A DNA stretch of 64,000 nucleotides from Tepidisphaeraceae bacterium. Its GTDB lineage: Bacteria; Planctomycetota; Phycisphaerae; Tepidisphaerales; Tepidisphaeraceae. The stretch spans positions 124,001 through 188,000 of the forward strand of contig DASYHQ010000041.1 of the NCBI GenBank assembly GCA_035998445.1, given 5' to 3'. This document shows, in pieces, positions 27,048 through 36,870 of this stretch. The position numbers were made by a program, and so were the translations under genes. Within the stretch, counting starts at the first letter, position 1. Each line of letters begins with the position of its first letter. Below the pieces are notes generated by a model that was given only the letters and a program-made list of their open reading frames with translations, was not told the DNA's origin and did not search any database.

Positions 27048-27068
27048 AGGACGAACGCGAGTCACGCA

Positions 27069-27102
27069 GACGAAGACGAAGACGAAGACGAAGACGACGA
27101 CG
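27069..27102. repeat. Hexanucleotide microsatellite
   Basis: Five tandem copies of AGACGA in the spacer between tadC and the lipoprotein gene, ending in ACGACG. Slippage could alter the distance between the genes. It is purine-rich on the coding strand. Confidence 0.85.
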
Positions 27103-27133
27103 CGTCACGGACGCGCTAACCAACGAGGAACCG

Positions 27134-27637
27134 ATGATGACCAAGACGAACCTGATGGTGTCCCTGATTGCCGGCCTTGCGCTGGGCGCGGGTTGCGCCA
27201 CGCGGCCGCACCAGTCGCTGGACCAGAATTACGGCATGGGCCAGGACTTCGCCGCCGCCCACGCCGACGAGGGCGCGCTGGAAGATGCGATGATCTACCC
27301 ACGGCACTTCGAGCACGACGCGCTGAACTCGCTCGGCCAATCGAAGCTCGCCCGGATCGCCAGCGCCGCCAAAGACGGTACCGCACCCGTCAACCTGTAC
27401 TTCGACGCGCCCGCCGCCGAGCTGACCGACGCCCGCAAGGCCGTTGTCATGCAGTTCCTGGCCGAGTACGGCCTGCCGAGCGAACGCGTCACCCTTGCGG
27501 TGGGCGTGAACCCGGCAACGAAGGATCTGGCGATGTTCGGCGCCCAGCGGTTGTACACCAAGGACAAGCGTGAGCCCTTCAAAGGCAGCGAAGGTGCAAA
27601 GGGTGGCGACAAGGGTGAAGCTGCCCCGAACAAGTAG
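27134..27637 (+). CDS. Lipoprotein at the end of the tad operon
   Basis: A 167-residue lipoprotein: signal and lipobox GLALGAGC (Cys about 21), then a mature domain with APVNLYFDAPAAELTDARKA and EYGLPSERVTLAVGVNPATK, and a Gly/Lys-rich tail. The pattern resembles the small CpaD/TadG-adjacent lipoproteins that support secretin assembly; similarity to CpaD is inferred from position and from the NLYFDAP...AVGVNP layout only. GAGGAA precedes the ATG. It has no TPR repeats, so it is not TadD. Confidence 0.7.
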   Translation: MMTKTNLMVSLIAGLALGAGCATRPHQSLDQNYGMGQDFAAAHADEGALEDAMIYPRHFEHDALNSLGQSKLARIASAAKDGTAPVNLYFDAPAAELTDARKAVVMQFLAEYGLPSERVTLAVGVNPATKDLAMFGAQRLYTKDKREPFKGSEGAKGGDKGEAAPNK

Positions 27638-27904: not shown

Positions 27905-30505
27905 ATGACCGTTGTTGATACCCCCTTGGCACCGCAAGTCTCCGCACCGGCCGACGCGCCCGTTGCGGGTGGTGGACGCGCGCGCCGGGCCGTGCCCGTC
28001 ACCGACCGCATCTGGCGTGATGGCAAGTTCTTCCGCCTGGGCAGTGAAAAGTTCTACGTGCGCGGCGTGACCTACGGGCCGTTCGCGCCGAACGCCGACG
28101 GCGACCCACTGCCCGGCATGGCGCAGGTGCGGCGCGATTTCGCGCAGATGAACGACCTGGGCGCCAACTGCGTCCGCATCTACCACGTGCCACCGAAATG
28201 GTTCCTGGACGAAGCGGACGCGGCCGGCATCAAGGTCTTCCTCGACGTCGCGTGGCCCAAGAATTTGAACTTCGTCGGCGATGCCGAGGTAACGCGCCAG
28301 GCCAACGACGCCGTCCGCCACGCCGCCCGCACGTGCGGCAATCACCCGGCGATGTTCGCGATCAGCGTCGTCAACGAGATACCGGCCGAGATCGTGCGGT
28401 TTGTGGGAGCCCGCAAGGTTGAGGCGTTCATCGACGACCTCGTCGAGATCGCAAAGGCCGAGGCGCCGCAGTGCCTGGTGACGTTCGCCAACTTTCCGAC
28501 CACCGAATACCTTCAGCCGCGCGGCATCGACTTCGTCTGCTTCAACGTCTACCTGCACGACGACACCGTCTTCCGCAACTACCTCGCACGCCTTCAGATG
28601 ATCGCCGGCGAGAAGCCGCTGATGCTCGGCGAGTACGGCATCGACACGTTCCGCGAATACTCCGAGGACGGCCAGGCCGACATTCTCGTGAAGCACGTGC
28701 GGGCGGTGTTCGACGAGGGCCTCGTCGGCACGTTCGTCTTCAGCTTCACCGACGACTGGCACACGCACGGCTACCAGATCGAAGACTGGGCCTTCGGCCT
28801 CGTGCGGCGCGATCGCTCACCAAAGCCGGCGTTCGAGGCGCTAAAGCAGATCCTGCCCCGCGTTCCGCAGGTGGCGGAGGTGACGCTGCCGAAGGTCAGC
28901 GTGGTCATCTGCTCGTATAACGGCGCCAGCACGGTCGAGACCTGTTTGGCATCGATGGAGCGCATCCGATACCCCGACTATGAGGTGGTGTTCGTCGACG
29001 ATGGCAGCCGCGACAACACGCAGGAGATCCTGAAGCAGTTCCCGTGGGTCGTGAACGTGCGGCAGGAGAACAAGGGCCTGTCGTACGCGCGCAACGTGGG
29101 CGCCCGCACCGCGACCGGCGAGATCATCGTCTACACCGACAGCGACTGCGAGGCGGATGAGGATTGGCTGTACTACATCGCCCTCAGCCTCGTGCGCGGC
29201 GGGCACGGTGGCATGGGCGGGCCGAACCTCATTCCCGACGAAGGCAGCTGGGTCGCCGACTGCGTGGGCCTGAGCCCGGGCGGACCGACGCACGTGATGA
29301 TCGACGACCGCACCGCCGAGCACGTGCCTGGCTGCAACATGGCGTTCTACAAGTGGGCGTTCGACCTCGTGAACGGCTTCGACAGCCAGTTCCGCAAGGC
29401 CGGTGACGACGTCGACTTCATCTGGCGCCTGCAGCACCTGGGCCACAGCATCGGCTTCTCGCCAGCGGCACAGGTGTGGCACTACCGGCGCAACAGCATC
29501 GAGGCCTACCTGAAACAACAGCGCGGCTATGGCGAGGCCGAGGCGCTGCTGAAGTACAAGCACCCCGACCACTTCAACACCCTCGGCGCCAGCCACTGGC
29601 GCGGCAAGATCTACGGCGGTGAGGCGATCGGCGTACGCGTGGGCGGCGACGTGATCTACCACGGCCTGTTTGGCACTGGCCTGTTCCAAACGATCTACCG
29701 CAAGCCCGCCTCGCTGGCCGCCATGATGTTGATGAGCATCGAGTGGCATTTGCTGTACGGCTTCACGTTCCTGCTTTCCATGGCGTTCGCGACGTTGGGC
29801 GCGTCCAACCCGGTATTCTGGATCGGGGTCGGCATGGCGATCGCGCCGATGCTGCTGGCGATCGTGGCGGCGATTCAATCGCCCATGCCGAAGCACCGCC
29901 ATTGGCTCACCCGCCCGCTGATCGCTTGGCTGCACTATCGCCAGCCGATCGCGCGCGGGTGGGCGCGCTACTCGGTGCGGCTGCGGGCCAAGGTGATGAA
30001 GAGCCTGGGCAAGGGGTACCGGTGGTCGTCCGACCTGCCGTTCGACCCGTCGGACCCAAGCACGCTGCGCTATTGGAACAAGGACTACGACCGCTTCCCG
30101 CTTTTGAAGCAGATTGGTGACGACGTGCGCACCGCCGGTTGGCGTACGCGGCCTGACAGTGGCTGGAGCCCGTGGGACCTGGAGATCTACGGCAGCCGTT
30201 ACACGAAGGTGCACATCATCACCGCCACCGAGCATCACCACGGCAGCGGCTACCTGACGCGCGTGCGCGTCACCTGCCGCATGAGCACCTTCTGCCGCGT
30301 GCTGATGGCGGCCTGCGCGCTGCTGGCGGGCATCTTGCTTTGGCACCTGTGGCCGTTCAGCCGACCGGCGGTGCTGATTCCGCTGGTGTGGTGGGCGATG
30401 TACGCGATCAACCGCCGCATGGTGATCGCGCCGGTCCTTGGCCTGATCGACGCCGCCGCCACCAAGGCGGGGTATTACCCGGTGCCGACGAAGAAGGCCG
30501 AGTAA
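27905..30505 (+). CDS. Glycoside hydrolase - family 2 glycosyltransferase fusion, membrane-bound
   Basis: An 866-residue enzyme predicted to build and remodel a secreted glycan. Residues about 40-315 form a clan GH-A (GH2/GH5-like) TIM barrel with both catalytic glutamates in context: VVNEIP (Glu-158) and LGEYGID (Glu-243). Residues about 330-560 form a GT2 domain with VVFVDDGS (365-368), YTDSDCEAD (412-414), GCNMAFYK, the catalytic GDDVDF and QQRGYGEAE. Two or three membrane helices follow (about 600-650 and 800-840). An ABC exporter starts two bases after the stop. Fusions of hydrolase and synthase are known for cyclic glucan enzymes (NdvB type); the product here is unknown. Confidence 0.85.
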   Translation: MTVVDTPLAPQVSAPADAPVAGGGRARRAVPVTDRIWRDGKFFRLGSEKFYVRGVTYGPFAPNADGDPLPGMAQVRRDFAQMNDLGANCVRIYHVPPKWFLDEADAAGIKVFLDVAWPKNLNFVGDAEVTRQANDAVRHAARTCGNHPAMFAISVVNEIPAEIVRFVGARKVEAFIDDLVEIAKAEAPQCLVTFANFPTTEYLQPRGIDFVCFNVYLHDDTVFRNYLARLQMIAGEKPLMLGEYGIDTFREYSEDGQADILVKHVRAVFDEGLVGTFVFSFTDDWHTHGYQIEDWAFGLVRRDRSPKPAFEALKQILPRVPQVAEVTLPKVSVVICSYNGASTVETCLASMERIRYPDYEVVFVDDGSRDNTQEILKQFPWVVNVRQENKGLSYARNVGARTATGEIIVYTDSDCEADEDWLYYIALSLVRGGHGGMGGPNLIPDEGSWVADCVGLSPGGPTHVMIDDRTAEHVPGCNMAFYKWAFDLVNGFDSQFRKAGDDVDFIWRLQHLGHSIGFSPAAQVWHYRRNSIEAYLKQQRGYGEAEALLKYKHPDHFNTLGASHWRGKIYGGEAIGVRVGGDVIYHGLFGTGLFQTIYRKPASLAAMMLMSIEWHLLYGFTFLLSMAFATLGASNPVFWIGVGMAIAPMLLAIVAAIQSPMPKHRHWLTRPLIAWLHYRQPIARGWARYSVRLRAKVMKSLGKGYRWSSDLPFDPSDPSTLRYWNKDYDRFPLLKQIGDDVRTAGWRTRPDSGWSPWDLEIYGSRYTKVHIITATEHHHGSGYLTRVRVTCRMSTFCRVLMAACALLAGILLWHLWPFSRPAVLIPLVWWAMYAINRRMVIAPVLGLIDAAATKAGYYPVPTKKAE

Positions 30506-30507
30506 CC

Positions 30508-32331
30508 ATGCAATTCTACCTGCGGGCGATCTCCTACTTCCGTGAAGACCTCGGCAAGATCATCCTCGCGCTGGTCATCATCGCGATCATGACGCTCTGC
30601 GGCTTGCTGGTGGTCTACCCGCTGTCGATCCTGGTCGATTCCGTCTTCGGACCCCACGGGCCCACCAACGCCGTGTCGGCGTTCTTCTTCCGCTTCGTGC
30701 CGGAAGGCAAGCTGGAACAGGTCATCGTGCTGGCTGCGTTCGCGTTGGTGCTGCGCTTCGTGCAGGAACTGCTGAGCATGGCCCACACGCTGCTCAACAT
30801 CCAGATTGGTTACAGCGGGTTGATGCGCGTGCGCTGCGATTTGTTCCGCAAACTGCAAGCGCTGTCGCTGGCGTACCACCGCAGCCAGCCGCAGGGCGAC
30901 GCAATTTACCGCCTGTCGTACGACACGTTCGGCTTCCAAACGATCCTGAACACGCTCGTGCAGACGATGCTGGTGAGCTCCGTCACGCTGATCTTCATGA
31001 CCGTCATCATGCTCAGCATGAACTGGCAGCTCACGCTGCTGTCGCTGTCGATCGCGCCGCTGTTGTTCTGGACGACGAAGATCTACAGTCGAATCCTGAC
31101 GAAGAAGGCCACGGAAGCGAAGGAGGTCGACACCCAGCTGACGACCACCATCCAGCGATCGGCCGCCACGATCGGCCTCGTGCAGGCCTTTAACCGTGAG
31201 GCCGACGAGTACGCCAAGTTTTCGTCGACCGTGCAGGCCTCGGTGTCGGCATACCTGCGGCTGCACTGGCAGGAGATGATTTTCTGGCTGTTCGTCGGCA
31301 ACATCTTCGGCATCGGTGGGGCGCTCATTTTCGGCTACGGCGGGTACCTGGTCTACCGCGATCAGTTCCTGCTGAACCTTGGAGATAAGGGCTTCACCGT
31401 CGGCCAACTGTCGATCTTCCTCGCCTACGTCGGCATGTTGTACGGGCCGCTGAAGAACCTGTCCGGCAGCGGCGCCGCGCTGGCGGGGGGCGTGGCGGGC
31501 GTGAAGCGCGTGTTCGAGGTGATGGACCGCGACCCGATCATCAAAGATGCGCCCAACGCCATCCATCTGCCGAAGCAGCCGCGCGTGCTCACGCTCGACC
31601 ACATCATCTTTGAGTACCAGAAGGGCCGGCCGGTGCTGGACGACGTGTCGTGCACCATTCGCCCGGGGCAGATGGTGGCGTTCGTCGGCCAGTCGGGCGT
31701 GGGCAAGACGACGCTGCTAAACCTGCTGCCGCGCTTTTACGATCCCGTAAGTGGCGCGTTGCGCCTGGATACCCACGACGTGCGCAACGTGCGTGTTGCG
31801 GACGTGCGCAAGCACATCGCGCTGGTGCTGCAGGAATCAGTGATCCTACCGACCACCGTCCGCGAGAACATCGCCTACGGCCGCCCCGATGCCACCGATG
31901 CCCAAATCCTCTCCGCCGCCGAGATCAGCGGCGCCGCGGTCTTCATCGACGCGCTGCCCGGCAAGTACGATGAAATGATCACCGAGGCCGGCCAGAACCT
32001 CTCCGGCGGACAAAAACAACGCATCAGCATCGCCCGCGCCCTGCTGACCGAGGCGCCGATCATCATCATGGACGAACCCACCAGCGCGCTCGACCCCGCC
32101 CACGAGCAGCACATCATCGAGACGCTGAAGCGCCTGAAGGGCCAGCGCACGATCATCCTCGTCAGCCACCGGCTCAGCACCGTCGCCGACTGCGACCAGA
32201 TCTTCGTTATGGACGCCGGCAAGGTCGTGGAACGCGGGTCGCACGATGAACTGGTGAAGCAGCGGGGGCTGTACTTCAGCATGGCCAAGCACCAGATGAA
32301 GCTGCCCGATTCCGAAGCAATCGTTCATTAG
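30508..32331 (+). CDS. ABC exporter of the glycan cluster
   Basis: Fused permease-ATPase of 607 residues, type I exporter fold. Six helices lie in residues 1-320 (LGKIILALVIIAIMTLCGLLV first). The ATPase has Walker A VGQSGVGKTT (about 390-399), signature NLSGGQKQR, Walker B IIIMDEPTSALD and H-loop VSHRLST. The ATG at 30508 is two bases behind the hydrolase-transferase fusion, so they are co-translated and the exporter most likely moves its lipid-linked or free glycan. The substrate is inferred from context only. Confidence 0.92.
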   Translation: MQFYLRAISYFREDLGKIILALVIIAIMTLCGLLVVYPLSILVDSVFGPHGPTNAVSAFFFRFVPEGKLEQVIVLAAFALVLRFVQELLSMAHTLLNIQIGYSGLMRVRCDLFRKLQALSLAYHRSQPQGDAIYRLSYDTFGFQTILNTLVQTMLVSSVTLIFMTVIMLSMNWQLTLLSLSIAPLLFWTTKIYSRILTKKATEAKEVDTQLTTTIQRSAATIGLVQAFNREADEYAKFSSTVQASVSAYLRLHWQEMIFWLFVGNIFGIGGALIFGYGGYLVYRDQFLLNLGDKGFTVGQLSIFLAYVGMLYGPLKNLSGSGAALAGGVAGVKRVFEVMDRDPIIKDAPNAIHLPKQPRVLTLDHIIFEYQKGRPVLDDVSCTIRPGQMVAFVGQSGVGKTTLLNLLPRFYDPVSGALRLDTHDVRNVRVADVRKHIALVLQESVILPTTVRENIAYGRPDATDAQILSAAEISGAAVFIDALPGKYDEMITEAGQNLSGGQKQRISIARALLTEAPIIIMDEPTSALDPAHEQHIIETLKRLKGQRTIILVSHRLSTVADCDQIFVMDAGKVVERGSHDELVKQRGLYFSMAKHQMKLPDSEAIVH

Positions 32332-32349
32332 AACAGGTATACTCAAGGC

Positions 32350-32925
32350 ATGCTTACGGCGAACCTACCGTCGACGAAGCGTTTTTCGCTTACCGAGTAC
32401 CACCGCCTCGTGGGGCTTGGTGCGTTTGATGGACAACGCGTCGAGTTGATCGACGGGGAGCTAATTGAGATGCCGCCGATTGGGGACGCGCACGCAATGG
32501 CGATCAGCTTGGGATTGGCGGCCCTTCAGCAGGCGTTTGGCTCCGGCTACCTCGTTCGCCCACAATTGCCCATCACGCTCGTGCCCGCATCCGAACCTGA
32601 ACCGGATTTACTGGTGGTTCGAGGAACGCCTCGAGACTTTCCAAAACATCCGCGTGACGCGCTGCTGATTGTTGAAGTGAGCGATTCGACGCTGCATTAC
32701 GATCAGACGCGAAAGATGTCGCTGTACGCCAAGGGTGGCATCCCCGAGTACTGGATCATCAATATTCCGGATGGCCAACTCGAAGTACATCGTGACCCGG
32801 TGGCGGATCGCGCGCGTCCGTTCGGCCGGCGTTATTCGACCGTCCTGACCTTTAAGCCCGGCCAATCGATCGCGCCGCTGGCGTTGCCGCGCAAGAAGAT
32901 CGCTGTCGCTGACCTCCTTCCCTAA
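32350..32925 (+). CDS. Uma2 family endonuclease-like protein
   Basis: PD-(D/E)XK fold protein of the Uma2 (DUF820) family, 191 residues. Family landmarks are RVELIDGELIEMPP, the catalytic-type PEPDLLVVRG and LLIVEVSDSTLHYD, and KGGIPEYWIINI. Members are abundant in planctomycetes and cyanobacteria and their role is unsettled. It stands 18 bases behind the exporter gene and its stop overlaps the ATG of the glycosyltransferase (TAATG), so it is part of the glycan transcript although functionally out of place. Confidence 0.9.
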   Translation: MLTANLPSTKRFSLTEYHRLVGLGAFDGQRVELIDGELIEMPPIGDAHAMAISLGLAALQQAFGSGYLVRPQLPITLVPASEPEPDLLVVRGTPRDFPKHPRDALLIVEVSDSTLHYDQTRKMSLYAKGGIPEYWIINIPDGQLEVHRDPVADRARPFGRRYSTVLTFKPGQSIAPLALPRKKIAVADLLP

Positions 32926-34160
32926 TGGCTGGCACGCAAAAACTCCGCATCATCGTCGGTGGCATGGTTGGGCAGTTTCCGCTGGGCGGCGTTGCCTGGG
33001 ACTACTTCCATTACGTCCTCGGCCTCGCCGAGCTGGGCCACGACGTCTACTACCACGAGGACACGTGGGTCTGGCCGTTCGATCCCGCAAAGCGCTACCC
33101 GACGGACGACCCGAACTACACCGTCAACTTCATCCGCGACTTCTTCAACACCTACGCACCGCACCTGAAGGACAAGTGGCACTACACGCTGCTGCACGAG
33201 ACCAGCTTCGGCATGACGCGCGAGGCGTTCGACGAGGTCGCCAAGACCGCCGACGTGTTCCTCAACGTCAGCGGCGCCTGCTTCTTCCCGGACAACCTCA
33301 GCCCGCGCTGCGTGAAGGTGTTCATGGACACCGACCCCGGCTACAACCAGATCCGCCTCAGCGAGCGCTTCGCTTGGGAGGAACACGTCGACCGCTGGGT
33401 GGCGCAGGTCCGGGCGCACGATGTGCACCTGACGTACGCCGAGAACATTTACGCTGAAGACTGCGTCATGCCGCGCATGGACTTCGACTGGCGGCCGACG
33501 CGCTGCGTAGTCACGCTCGAACCGTGGCGGCAGTTCGTCGATCGCGCGCCCGCGGCCGACGCGCCGTTCACCACGGTGATGACGTGGGACTACTTCAAGG
33601 GTGCCGTCACGTACAAGGGCATCGAATACCTGACGAAGGTGAAGGAATACGACAAGTTCCACGACTTGCCGCGCCGCGTGCCGACCGTGCCGTTGGAACT
33701 GGCGATCACCGGCTACAAGTGCCCGACCGACGAGGTCCAGCGCGACGGCTGGCAGATGGCCGAGGCGTTCGCGCGCTCGCGCACGCCCGCGACGTACCTC
33801 CACTACATCGGCACCAGCGCCGGCGAGTGGTCGATCGCCAAGAACGTCTACGTCGACACGCGCAGTGGCTGGTTCAGCTGCCGCACCGCCTGCTACCTGG
33901 CCGCCGGCCGACCTGCGGTGGTGCAGGACACCGCCTGGAGCCGCTACGTCCCCAGTGGCGCCGGACTGTTCGCGTTCACCACGATGGACGAAGCCGTGGA
34001 CGCCCTGCAACGCATCGCGAGCGACGCCGTGACGCAGCGCCAGCTAGCCTATGGCATCGCCCGCGACTACCTCGCGCCCGATAAGGTCCTGCCCCCCATG
34101 CTCGATGCCATCTTTGCCACCAGCGCCAAAGATGCCCCTCGGCCACCGTCACTGGGGTAG
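32925..34160 (+). CDS. Glycosyltransferase, GT-B type
   Basis: A 411-residue soluble glycosyltransferase. The N-terminal half begins with IIVGGMVGQFPLGGVAWDYFHYVLGL, the glycine-rich acceptor-side loop, and GHDVYYHEDT. The C-terminal half has TRSGWFSCRTACYLAAGRPAVVQDT and PSGAGLFAFTTMDEAVDAL, the nucleotide-sugar site pattern of GT4-like enzymes. It completes the glycan cluster with the synthase-hydrolase fusion and the exporter. Donor and acceptor are unknown. Confidence 0.82.
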   Translation: MAGTQKLRIIVGGMVGQFPLGGVAWDYFHYVLGLAELGHDVYYHEDTWVWPFDPAKRYPTDDPNYTVNFIRDFFNTYAPHLKDKWHYTLLHETSFGMTREAFDEVAKTADVFLNVSGACFFPDNLSPRCVKVFMDTDPGYNQIRLSERFAWEEHVDRWVAQVRAHDVHLTYAENIYAEDCVMPRMDFDWRPTRCVVTLEPWRQFVDRAPAADAPFTTVMTWDYFKGAVTYKGIEYLTKVKEYDKFHDLPRRVPTVPLELAITGYKCPTDEVQRDGWQMAEAFARSRTPATYLHYIGTSAGEWSIAKNVYVDTRSGWFSCRTACYLAAGRPAVVQDTAWSRYVPSGAGLFAFTTMDEAVDALQRIASDAVTQRQLAYGIARDYLAPDKVLPPMLDAIFATSAKDAPRPPSLG

Positions 34161-34314: not shown

Positions 34315-35664
34315 CTACTGGAACAGCTCTCGATCGGCGGTCATCTGCTCCACATGGTCCGCGAAGCAAAGTGGGCGCGCGTCCGTCTTGCGCAGGCGCA
34401 CGAAGAGCGATCCCATCGCAAGCCGGTCGACGTGCCGCAGGTAGAGCGCAGCCGCCGGCACCGTGCCGAACATGAACACCTCCGGGTACGCGGCGGCGTT
34501 CTCCGGTACCGCGCCGATCTCCGCTGCCGTTTGCGACGAACCGCCGCGGGTTTCGATCTGCAGGTTCTGGATCTGCACGTCTTCGATGCGATGTCCCGGG
34601 ATGCCCGAGATTACCGATGGATGCGTCGCGCCCGTGGCGACGATGTTCGACAGCACAATGCCGCGCATCTCGCCCGCCGACGTTCGCGCGCCGCTGCGCA
34701 GCCGTTCGCCAAGGCGCAGGAAGATCGGCGTGCGGGCGTTGGTCATGGTGATGTTGCTGCACGTCACGTTCCGCACGCTGCCGCCGTCCACCGTCTCCAA
34801 GGCAATCCCGCTGATGCACCGTTCGATCGGCCGCGCGTCGTTGGGGCTGTAGATCGCGCTGTTGCTGAAGCAGACGTTCTCCACGTCCTCCTCGGTCTCG
34901 GTGCCGATCTTGAACGCGTTGCAGCCGCTGTGCAGGCGGCAGTTGGTCACCGTTACATTGCGGATCGGCGTGCAGGTGCCGAACAGGTTCGTCGTCTTCA
35001 GCACGATCGCGTCGTCGCCGGTCTCAATCGTGCAGTCGGCGATCAGCACGTCGGACGAACCGTCGATGTCGATGCCGTCGGTGTTCGGGCCGTAAATCGG
35101 GTTCAGGATATCGATGCCGCGGATCTTCACGTCGCGGCAACCGACCACGTGGCACGTCCAGCTGACCGCGCCGGTCAGGTGCACGTCTCGCACCTGCACG
35201 TGCCGGCAGCGCAGGAAGGCCACCAGCCGGTTGGGCTTGGACAGCTCGCGCATGTGCTCGTACCAGAACTGGATGACGCCCACCTCGTCCACGTCCGCCC
35301 GGCTCGAGCGCGGCGCATCCAGCTTGCGCCAATAGCGCGATCCCTGCCCGTCGATCGTCCCGCCCCCGGTAATGGCCACGTCGACCGCGTCGCGCGCGAA
35401 GACCAGCGCCGTCATCCGCTGATGTTGCGGGTCGATCGCCCGGTAACTGTCGCCGTTGAAGATCCCGCGCAGCGTCGCGCCGCGTTCGAGGTGCAGTTCC
35501 ACGCGATCCTTCAGCTGCACGGTCCCAATCATGTAAACGCCCGGCGGCACGACGACGCGCCCACCACCCGCCGCCGCGCACGCGTCGATCGCCGCCTGCA
35601 CCGCGATTGTGTCTTCCGTCTCCCCATCGCCCGCTGCGCGGTATGCCGTAATGCTGTAATCCAC
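34315..35664 (-). CDS. Glycoside hydrolase family 28 (polygalacturonase-like)
   Basis: Right-handed beta-helix hydrolase acting on pectin-like or other acidic polysaccharides. The N-terminal pectate-lyase superfamily segment (DTIAVQAAIDACAAAGGGRVVVPPGVY) leads into the GH28 catalytic region: NTDGIDIDGS, TGDDAIVLK, and SGCNAFKIGTE in the place of the usual GHG and RIK boxes. The two aspartates are kept, while the GHG histidine is replaced by GCN. Length is 449 residues and no signal peptide is seen, so it may act on imported oligosaccharides. It stands alone. Confidence 0.85.
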   Translation of the reverse strand: MDYSITAYRAAGDGETEDTIAVQAAIDACAAAGGGRVVVPPGVYMIGTVQLKDRVELHLERGATLRGIFNGDSYRAIDPQHQRMTALVFARDAVDVAITGGGTIDGQGSRYWRKLDAPRSSRADVDEVGVIQFWYEHMRELSKPNRLVAFLRCRHVQVRDVHLTGAVSWTCHVVGCRDVKIRGIDILNPIYGPNTDGIDIDGSSDVLIADCTIETGDDAIVLKTTNLFGTCTPIRNVTVTNCRLHSGCNAFKIGTETEEDVENVCFSNSAIYSPNDARPIERCISGIALETVDGGSVRNVTCSNITMTNARTPIFLRLGERLRSGARTSAGEMRGIVLSNIVATGATHPSVISGIPGHRIEDVQIQNLQIETRGGSSQTAAEIGAVPENAAAYPEVFMFGTVPAAALYLRHVDRLAMGSLFVRLRKTDARPLCFADHVEQMTADRELFQ

Positions 35665-35845: not shown

Positions 35846-35869
35846 ACTTTGCAAAAAGGAGACAGCGTC

Positions 35870-36181
35870 ATGGCGTGGTTCATTCTCATCCTCGCGGGCC
35901 TGCTCGAGATCGGCTGGGCCGTCGGCCTGAAACACACGCACGGCTTCACCCGCCCGCTGCCGACCCTGCTCACCGCCATCGCGATGCTGCTCAGCCTCGG
36001 CCTGCTCGGCCTGGCCCTCCGGCATCTGCCGGTCGGCACCGCCTACGCCATCTGGACCGGCATCGGCACCGTCGGCACCGCGCTCCTAGGCATGCTCCTC
36101 CTCGGCGACCCCACCAGCCCGCTGCGCCTCGCCTGCATCGGGCTCATCCTGCTGGGCATCGTGGGATTGAAGATGGCTTAA
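35870..36181 (+). CDS. gdx: Guanidinium exporter, small multidrug resistance family
   Basis: Proton-coupled exporter of the SMR family, Gdx (SugE) subtype, 103 residues with four membrane helices. The subtype markers are the glutamate in LAGLLEIGWAVGLKHTHGF (Glu-13) and HLPVGTAYAIWTGIGTVGTALLGM. The protein works as an antiparallel dimer exchanging guanidinium for protons. The guanidine-II riboswitch just upstream gives independent support for the substrate. AAAAAGGAG precedes the ATG at 35870. Confidence 0.95.
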   Translation: MAWFILILAGLLEIGWAVGLKHTHGFTRPLPTLLTAIAMLLSLGLLGLALRHLPVGTAYAIWTGIGTVGTALLGMLLLGDPTSPLRLACIGLILLGIVGLKMA

Positions 36182-36204: not shown

Positions 36205-36870
36205 TCACGGCTCGGGAAGAATGCTGCGCAACAGATGTCCGTACCGCAAGGCTAGAATCAGCGGCCCAAAGACAATTCCAAGCACGAACGCAATCGCCGC
36301 GGTGTAGGCCACGACGTGCCGGATGTCCACCGGTCGCCGCGGCTTTTGCTCCAAGGGCCGTTCGGGTGTCTCGTAGGCGATGGGCTGAAGCGGCATCGCG
36401 CGGACCGTCTCGCCAGATAGCATCAGCTCGATCGGCGCGGCCGCGACGCGCAGCAACGCTTCTGCGACGGGATTGGCGAGCTGCCGTGCGAACTCCAGTG
36501 GAGACGGGCCCATCGCCGTATCGGCCGTCGGGGAGGCGCCGTGCCGCAACAGCAAATCGATCATGTCTCCCGACCGTGCCTGTTCAAGTTGCGAGGCCGC
36601 ATCTGACGACACCTCGATCGCGTGCAACAGCGGCGTGAACCAACCGTCGCGCGTCGTCTGTTCCACGTCCGCCCCCAGCTGAAGCAGCAGTTCCACCGTC
36701 TGCAATTGATTGTTCTCGATCGCCGCGTGCAGCGCGTTCAGCCCGCCATCGGAATAGGCCCGCAGGTCTGCGCCCTCCTCCACCAGCCGCGCGACCGCTG
36801 CGACATCACCTTTGAAAGCCGTCTGCACGAGGTCGTGCGTCTTGCGGTGCGCTTCGTGATGCTCAGCCAT
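36205..36870 (-). CDS. Ankyrin-repeat protein with C-terminal membrane helix
   Basis: A 221-residue protein. Residues 10-145 hold about four ankyrin repeats (DVAAVARLVEEGADLRAYS, GLNALHAAIENNQLQTVELLLQLGADVEQT, MIDLLLRHGASPTADT). A linker leads to one or two hydrophobic segments (VVAYTAAIAFVLGIVFGPLIL). It is likely a tail-anchored adaptor with the repeats in the cytoplasm. It is last of three overlapping minus-strand genes, so it should act with the two small membrane proteins before it. Confidence 0.82.
   Translation of the reverse strand: MAEHHEAHRKTHDLVQTAFKGDVAAVARLVEEGADLRAYSDGGLNALHAAIENNQLQTVELLLQLGADVEQTTRDGWFTPLLHAIEVSSDAASQLEQARSGDMIDLLLRHGASPTADTAMGPSPLEFARQLANPVAEALLRVAAAPIELMLSGETVRAMPLQPIAYETPERPLEQKPRRPVDIRHVVAYTAAIAFVLGIVFGPLILALRYGHLLRSILPEP

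Follow-up and report, generated by a model that had tools for sequence, protein, structure and literature searches.

The locus at 27905 to 34160 of the window, which is the whole 64,000-nucleotide stretch of Tepidisphaeraceae bacterium DNA analyzed here (contig DASYHQ010000041.1, positions 124,001 to 188,000 of the forward strand), raises the question of what a glycoside hydrolase (GH) would do when fused to a family 2 glycosyltransferase (GT2) and encoded directly ahead of an ATP-binding cassette (ABC) exporter. Four open reading frames (ORFs), all on the + strand, were found in this interval at the positions given by a preliminary description of this DNA. The title of that description named three genes, the fusion, the exporter, and a GT-B enzyme; those three are present, and the interval also holds a fourth, the third in order, which encodes a Uma2-type protein. 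The fusion (27905..30505, +; 866 amino acids) consists of a clan GH-A barrel (residues 31–325), a GT2 domain (about 329–567), and a membrane C-terminus with an alpha/beta insert (717–793), as judged by Pfam, the predicted structure, fold matching, and hydropathy. We tentatively propose, with somewhat less than an even chance of being right, that the fusion and the ABC exporter act together as a module that assembles and exports a glycan destined for the cell surface or for secretion, the GH-A domain remodeling the product before export.

To characterize the fusion, we searched a named collection, obtained 98 relatives, and took the 80 best as loci (14 with planctomycete titles and 66 with mostly Verrucomicrobia titles). 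The match spanned both catalytic domains in 79 of these 80 loci, L050 starting at a contig end. Alignment A1 combined the window protein with 54 of these loci; the other 26 were left out (L050 and L051 as incomplete and 24 to limit size), and L047 was left out of alignment A2. An AlphaFold2 model of the fusion based on a 55-row alignment (predicted local distance difference test score, pLDDT, 88.3) contained a TIM barrel at residues 31–325 (27995..28879, +), preceded by about 30 residues. Pfam detected GH2_C at 49–317 (8.1e-10; 38.8 bits against a cut-off of 21) and GH72 at 39–120 (2.6e-8; 34 bits against 25.9), and at an E value of 0.001 the GH2 barrel and GH72 models matched 45 and 48 of the 55 members, respectively. 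The best fold match of the barrel was the GH157 structure 9g4n (VIA Z 31.4; root-mean-square deviation, rmsd, 3.0 Å over 305 residues; about 18% identity), with GH2 beta-glucuronidases scoring nearly as high (Z about 29–30); barrel matches filled the fold-match list for the whole fusion. A profile search gave 1.8e-18 for GH157 and 1.7e-15 for a GH2 enzyme. Whereas GH2 enzymes carry beta-sandwich domains ahead of the barrel, no Pfam match to GH2_N or the GH2 sandwich domain was found in the window protein or the 55 members, and none of the 55 members matched the GH17 model at an E value of 0.001. Since the barrel resembles GH157 and GH2 alike, we assign it to clan GH-A without placing it in one family.

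Clan GH-A enzymes are defined by a TIM barrel with an acid/base glutamate following an asparagine on strand 4 and a nucleophilic glutamate on strand 7. In the model, Asn-157/Glu-158 and Glu-243 are placed accordingly with respect to strands 150–157 and 239–244, making Glu-158 the candidate acid/base and Glu-243 the candidate nucleophile; Glu-243 aligns with the residue mutated in 9g4n (E224A). Glu-158, Glu-243, Arg-91, Tyr-93, His-147, Tyr-216, Trp-285, and Trp-295 were found in all 69 proteins compared, Asn-157 in 68, and His-218 in 55, confirming the earlier claim of a hydrolase with both catalytic glutamates joined to a GT2. This conservation extends to proteins down to about 40% identity, and in view of the retained Glu-158, Glu-243, Arg-91, Tyr-216, Trp-285, and Asn-157, a catalytically silent GH-A domain acting only as a scaffold is hardly credible.

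The GT2 domain (28889..29605, +) was recognized by Pfam PF00535 at 332–435 in the window protein (6.1e-28) and in all 55 members, and its best NCBIfam match was MftF (1e-42; 146.7 bits against a cut-off of 280). Asp-366, Asp-412, Asp-414, Asp-501, Asp-502, Gln-538, Gln-539, and Tyr-542 were present in 69 of 69 proteins and Asp-365 in 68; the invariant Asp-412, Asp-414, Asp-501, and Asp-502 thus supply the DxD motif and catalytic base of a GT2 enzyme. Processive GT2 synthases of the BcsA/HAS type are characterized by a QxxRW motif. This motif occurred in none of the 69 proteins, all of which had Q538-Q-x-G/N-Y instead (position 541 being Gly in 60 and Asn in 9), so the earlier label of a "processive-type" transferase could not be upheld. 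The segment linking the GH-A and GT2 domains (316–332) was 16 residues long in 65 of 69 proteins, and 17, 17, 20, and 52 in the other four.

The membrane part (residues 605–854; 29717..30466, +) showed hydrophobic stretches near 606–655 and 794–841 with the small alpha/beta insert between them, and hydropathy revealed clear membrane stretches in the window protein only after residue 600. Across the 69 proteins, the 19-residue hydropathy before residue 570 reached at most 1.55, whereas the C-terminal minimum was 1.90; no strong hydrophobic stretch was seen before residue 570, and hence none between GH-A and GT2, nor was a signal-peptide-like hydrophobic N-terminus found. Because both catalytic domains precede all membrane helices and no such N-terminus is seen, they would share a compartment; the nucleotide sugars on which GT2 enzymes draw are cytosolic, which probably makes this compartment the cytoplasm. 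On this hydropathy evidence, both the GH-A and GT2 domains should be cytosolic.

The start codon of the ABC gene (30508..32331, +) lies two bases after the fusion (30505/30508), as described earlier, and its 607-residue product is an MsbA-type exporter with membrane and ATPase domains in a single chain, assigned by Pfam/NCBIfam and synteny. A second exporter copy, 56% identical, is encoded in the same genome (L168 9322–11244; G000:C13:203426–205228) beside epimerase/dehydratase and glycosyltransferase-like genes. We examined whether this adjacency is kept in relatives using gene maps from a purpose-made ORF picker, in which miscalls are possible and the fusions of L142 and L181 were placed from other searches; neighbors such as LbH and YdjC were named by Pfam on chosen members and otherwise by BLAST grouping. 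In the window's own family, 16 of the 18 copies with sequence downstream had an ABC gene in the same orientation, at most about 280 bases after the fusion (window, G001, G002, G005–G010, G013–G015, G017, G019, G023, and G025), the ABC frame of G009 containing stops and the contig of G025 holding only the ABC start. The ABC genes of G011 and G012 were on other contigs, the contig of G022 ends within the fusion, and the ABC gene also adjoined the divergent copy of G021. Across the 26 genomes of the family, 20 had both fusion and ABC, one had ABC only (G024, in which the contig stops at this gene), five had neither, and none had the fusion only; with cut-offs that differ between the genes and kinship ignored, the one-sided hypergeometric probability of this co-occurrence is 21/230230 = 9e-5. 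Adjacency was likewise seen in all eight regions of a second Phycisphaerae family, where the stop and start codons overlapped by 1–4 bases in six, and where LbH, GT-B, and YdjC-type genes followed the pair in the seven of seven regions that were long enough.

Gene order was looser elsewhere. In the divergent copies of G013 and G022, the ABC gene was 3.7–3.9 kb from the fusion, with APH, GT4, and PIG-L genes between and a GT-B gene after it; G249 had GNAT, ABC, GT-B, polysaccharide deacetylase, and GT-B genes in this order; the region of G158 contained no ABC gene; and in G392, an ABC–LbH–GT-B set was on a different contig from the fusion. Loci L159 and L160 carried two ABC, one LbH, and two GT-B genes 3–14 kb from the fusion on the opposite strand, with other genes between. 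Among eight further verrucomicrobial regions, the ABC gene adjoined the fusion in three and was not found in the fetched stretch of the other five; two of the three came from genomes with three pmoA-type genes. In small pmoA-bearing genomes (L177 6941–11346 and L178), fusion and ABC lay between a purC-type-like gene and FtsA/FtsZ-like cell-division genes.

The last ORF of the locus (32925..34160, +) encodes a protein of 411 residues without a match in Pfam or NCBIfam. Its model (pLDDT 92.7) resembled the GT4-type enzyme BshA over both Rossmann halves (Z 24.5; rmsd 3.9 over 327 residues; 10% identity), indicating a GT4-like GT-B fold and thereby bearing out, at the level of a model, the GT-B assignment made previously. 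In an alignment of its family (A3; the window protein plus 29 of 36 candidate sequences), weak Glyco_trans_1_2 Pfam matches were obtained for 8 of 30 members and NCBIfam matches for none. GT4-like GT-B enzymes are expected to have an EX7E motif; the segment SGWFS(C/D)RxACYLAxGRP (window residues 314–330), inspected by eye without superposition, had no Glu at the expected places. Members of this family often occur in tandem pairs. A GT-B gene followed ABC in G002, G005, G007, G009, G014, G017, G023, and G024, and with other genes between in the window and G012, and it was located elsewhere in the genome in G006, G008, G011, and G015. The steady adjacency of ABC, set against this patchy GT-B distribution, indicates that fusion and ABC are the core pair, with GT-B often present but less tightly associated.

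The remaining ORF (32350..32925, +) encodes a Uma2-type putative endonuclease (PF05685) and is probably a passenger. Between ABC and GT-B, it was found in the window and on only one relative contig, in G012 (L171 997–1665), where it stands beside an RTX-repeat protein gene, and we rejected it as a core member. The four-gene order suggested for a search of other genomes was thus conserved in its fusion–ABC part, with GT-B frequent and Uma2 not a standing member. Within the window, ABC and Uma2 are separated by 18 bases, and the Uma2 stop codon shares one base with the GT-B start codon. This spacing is compatible with an operon. Matches to promoter and terminator consensus sites were no commoner in the locus than in shuffled sequence.

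The preliminary description had also tied the locus to a pilus operon, and a processive synthase making a matrix polymer associated with it would be the corresponding explanation. A T2SSE ATPase and two T2SSF proteins of a pilus- or secretion-type operon are indeed encoded just upstream. However, a separate small gene without a Pfam match (27134–27637) and a gap of about 267 bases intervene before the fusion, the processivity motif is absent, and no match above 60 bits to the two T2SSF proteins was found in the 80 loci, many of whose contigs are short. The link therefore did not survive, and we regard this explanation as very unlikely. A short GAC/GAA-rich repeat occupies 27064–27108, between the last T2SSF gene and the small gene. 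Beyond the locus are a GH28 (polygalacturonase-type) gene facing the operon (34315–35664, −), a gene for a small multidrug resistance (SMR) family protein (35849–36181), and one for an ankyrin-repeat protein with a hydrophobic stretch at its C-terminus (36205–36870, −).

We then determined how widely the fusion is distributed. It was present in 20 of 26 genomes of the window's family, split over contigs in two of them, and in 9 of 12 genomes of the second Phycisphaerae family, with no match at 1e-100 in the other 63 genomes of the same search. An even draw of the phylum gave the fusion in 3 of 294 genomes, including the window's own, and 14 of 194 genomes in the phylum of a verrucomicrobial carrier had it, two of the 14 having been chosen beforehand. 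Restriction to a single phylum was therefore rejected, as carriers are also scattered in Verrucomicrobiota; some of the carriers are bacteria of soil and fresh water. Plasmid-borne spread was not indicated: tblastn with residues 32–798 against 72,556 plasmid records gave no match at 1e-30. In a tree of 69 proteins, the window protein fell inside a Phycisphaerae clade, and a second, divergent type was found in the same class. Two loci titled Klebsiella pneumoniae (L060) and Akkermansia muciniphila (L065) had fusion genes that grouped with those of other Verrucomicrobia, and their titles look doubtful.

How, then, might the module work? The GT2 domain, judging from its family and invariant aspartates, would extend a growing glycan at the inner membrane face with sugars taken from nucleotide donors. 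The GH-A barrel, which by fold and residues has a retaining-type site and is held to GT2 in the same compartment by the near-constant linker, would cut the nascent chain and most likely pass it to another sugar hydroxyl, thereby cyclizing, branching, or ending the chain. The membrane helices seem too few for a typical polymer channel, suggesting that the finished product leaves through the ABC exporter, a role to which the gene adjacency also points. GT-B and, in some relatives, LbH/GNAT acyltransferases, YdjC, PIG-L, or polysaccharide deacetylases may decorate it. The presence of acyltransferase and deacetylase genes suggests that the product is an oligosaccharide bearing acyl groups and amino sugars, not a plain glucan. 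The clues disagree, however, deacetylases and acyltransferases suggesting amino sugars, GH157 beta-1,3-glucan, and MftF beta-1,4-glucose, and we therefore do not name the product.

Several observations weigh against this assembly-and-export scheme. Among the 66 loci L052–L117, many on short contigs, 61 had no ABC match above 60 bits and the other five had a non-adjacent one, suggesting that the fusion can stand apart from ABC; their recurrent neighbors, named by reading, were thymidylate synthase-like (12 loci), TolC-like (10), DHFR (6), and MurJ (5) genes. At 1e-10, 4 of the 20 genomes of the family that carry the fusion (G001, G010, G019, and G025) gave no GT-B match, and GT-B was present in two genomes, G016 and G024, in which no fusion was detected. 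The window exporter scored below the cut-offs of both MsbA, its best match (TIGR02203; 373.1 bits against 602), and the cyclic glucan exporters ChvA/NdvA (TIGR01192, 244.6 against 585.4; PRK13657, 315 against 733). Finally, a GH-A fold with two glutamates cannot distinguish a hydrolase from a transglycosylase, and His-218 is variable. A second exporter copy, 56% identical, is encoded in the same genome (L168 9322–11244; G000:C13:203426–205228) beside epimerase/dehydratase and glycosyltransferase-like genes.

The catalytic ambiguity leaves room for a hydrolytic editor, in which GH-A trims or releases over-long or mis-primed GT2 chains and so sets product length without transglycosylation. The nearest solved relative, GH157, was solved with laminari-oligosaccharides, and an editing hydrolase would need the invariant glutamate pair and near-fixed linker equally. 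Yet retaining GH-A enzymes are capable of both hydrolysis and transfer and nothing we found favors the former, so that we consider an editor rather unlikely. We are similarly doubtful of a small lipid-linked or amino-sugar glycoconjugate, built with Nod-factor-like or lipooligosaccharide-like logic, for which GT2 would add one or a few sugars and ABC would act as a lipid-type flippase. The missing QxxRW motif, the LbH acyltransferase, YdjC, PIG-L, GT4, and APH-type kinase genes in relatives' clusters, and MsbA as the top match of the exporter all agree with it; but the window cluster has none of these additional genes, BLAST grouping placed none beside the mapped first-type clusters of the same family, and no lipid step was seen.

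Within the proposed assembly-and-export module, a more specific and more doubtful possibility is that the fusions form a distinct Phycisphaerae/Verrucomicrobiota synthase class. In this class, the GH-A domain would be a transglycosylase active in the cytosol and fused directly to the front of a GT2 lacking QxxRW, and it would close or branch the chain before a dedicated ABC pump exports it. The product would be an undescribed surface oligosaccharide, with an uncatalogued GT-B family, acyltransferases, and deacetylases probably adding the decorations. Retained whole in two phyla, together with its catalytic residues, a linker of almost fixed length, and in many cases an exporter of its own, the fusion would allow a test of whether a glycan can be completed in the cytosol ahead of its export. 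Should the pmoA-bearing genomes, which are reminiscent of Methylacidiphilum, be those of its cultured members, the system would be open to experiment. The locus further points to a GT-B family lacking NCBIfam matches and having at most weak Pfam matches.

A literature search of open-licence papers found no fusion of this kind, and the hydrolase–synthase fusions compared here use other GH families. The GH17–GT2 proteins of pseudomonads ("Orphan"/NdvB), as presented in PMC10237404, also have a TIM-barrel GH N-terminal to GT2 in one membrane protein and are proposed to make cyclic beta-glucan; the paper also names the QxxRW motif. Their GH17 domain is mostly modeled outside the cytoplasm, in the periplasm behind a signal peptide and three transmembrane (TM) helices. 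Some Pseudomonas syringae members lack the signal peptide and have a predicted cytoplasmic GH17, one of them being suggested by the authors to be non-functional, so that a cytosolic GH has precedent as a prediction. Unlike these proteins, the window fusion contains another GH-A group joined directly to GT2, with no TM helix seen between and an ABC gene often adjacent. Cyclic beta-1,2-glucan synthase, according to PMC11842490, similarly combines a GT2 with a GH domain, which cyclizes the product, and an ABC transporter; it differs in carrying GH189, an (alpha/alpha)6 domain, and GH94 and in being far larger, with residue numbers above 2500, and the window exporter falls below the glucan-exporter cut-offs. 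GH157 of Labilibaculum antarcticum (PDB 9fz9, 9g4n, and 9g5g; laminaritriose bound), the nearest solved GH, shares the barrel fold and the Glu-243/Glu-224 equivalence, but its 537-residue chains are only about 18% identical and have no GT2 match. MftF, the mycofactocin glycosyltransferase, is the closest NCBIfam relative of the GT2 part, but the score is far under the cut-off, and the 470-residue M. smegmatis protein, which adds as many as nine beta-1,4-glucoses according to PMC7491314, is too short for this fusion. Together, these comparisons, in which no GH17 domain, no intervening TM segment, and no exporter score above the glucan-exporter cut-offs were found, suggest that the fusion system works in outline like the known two-headed synthases and is a variant of them.

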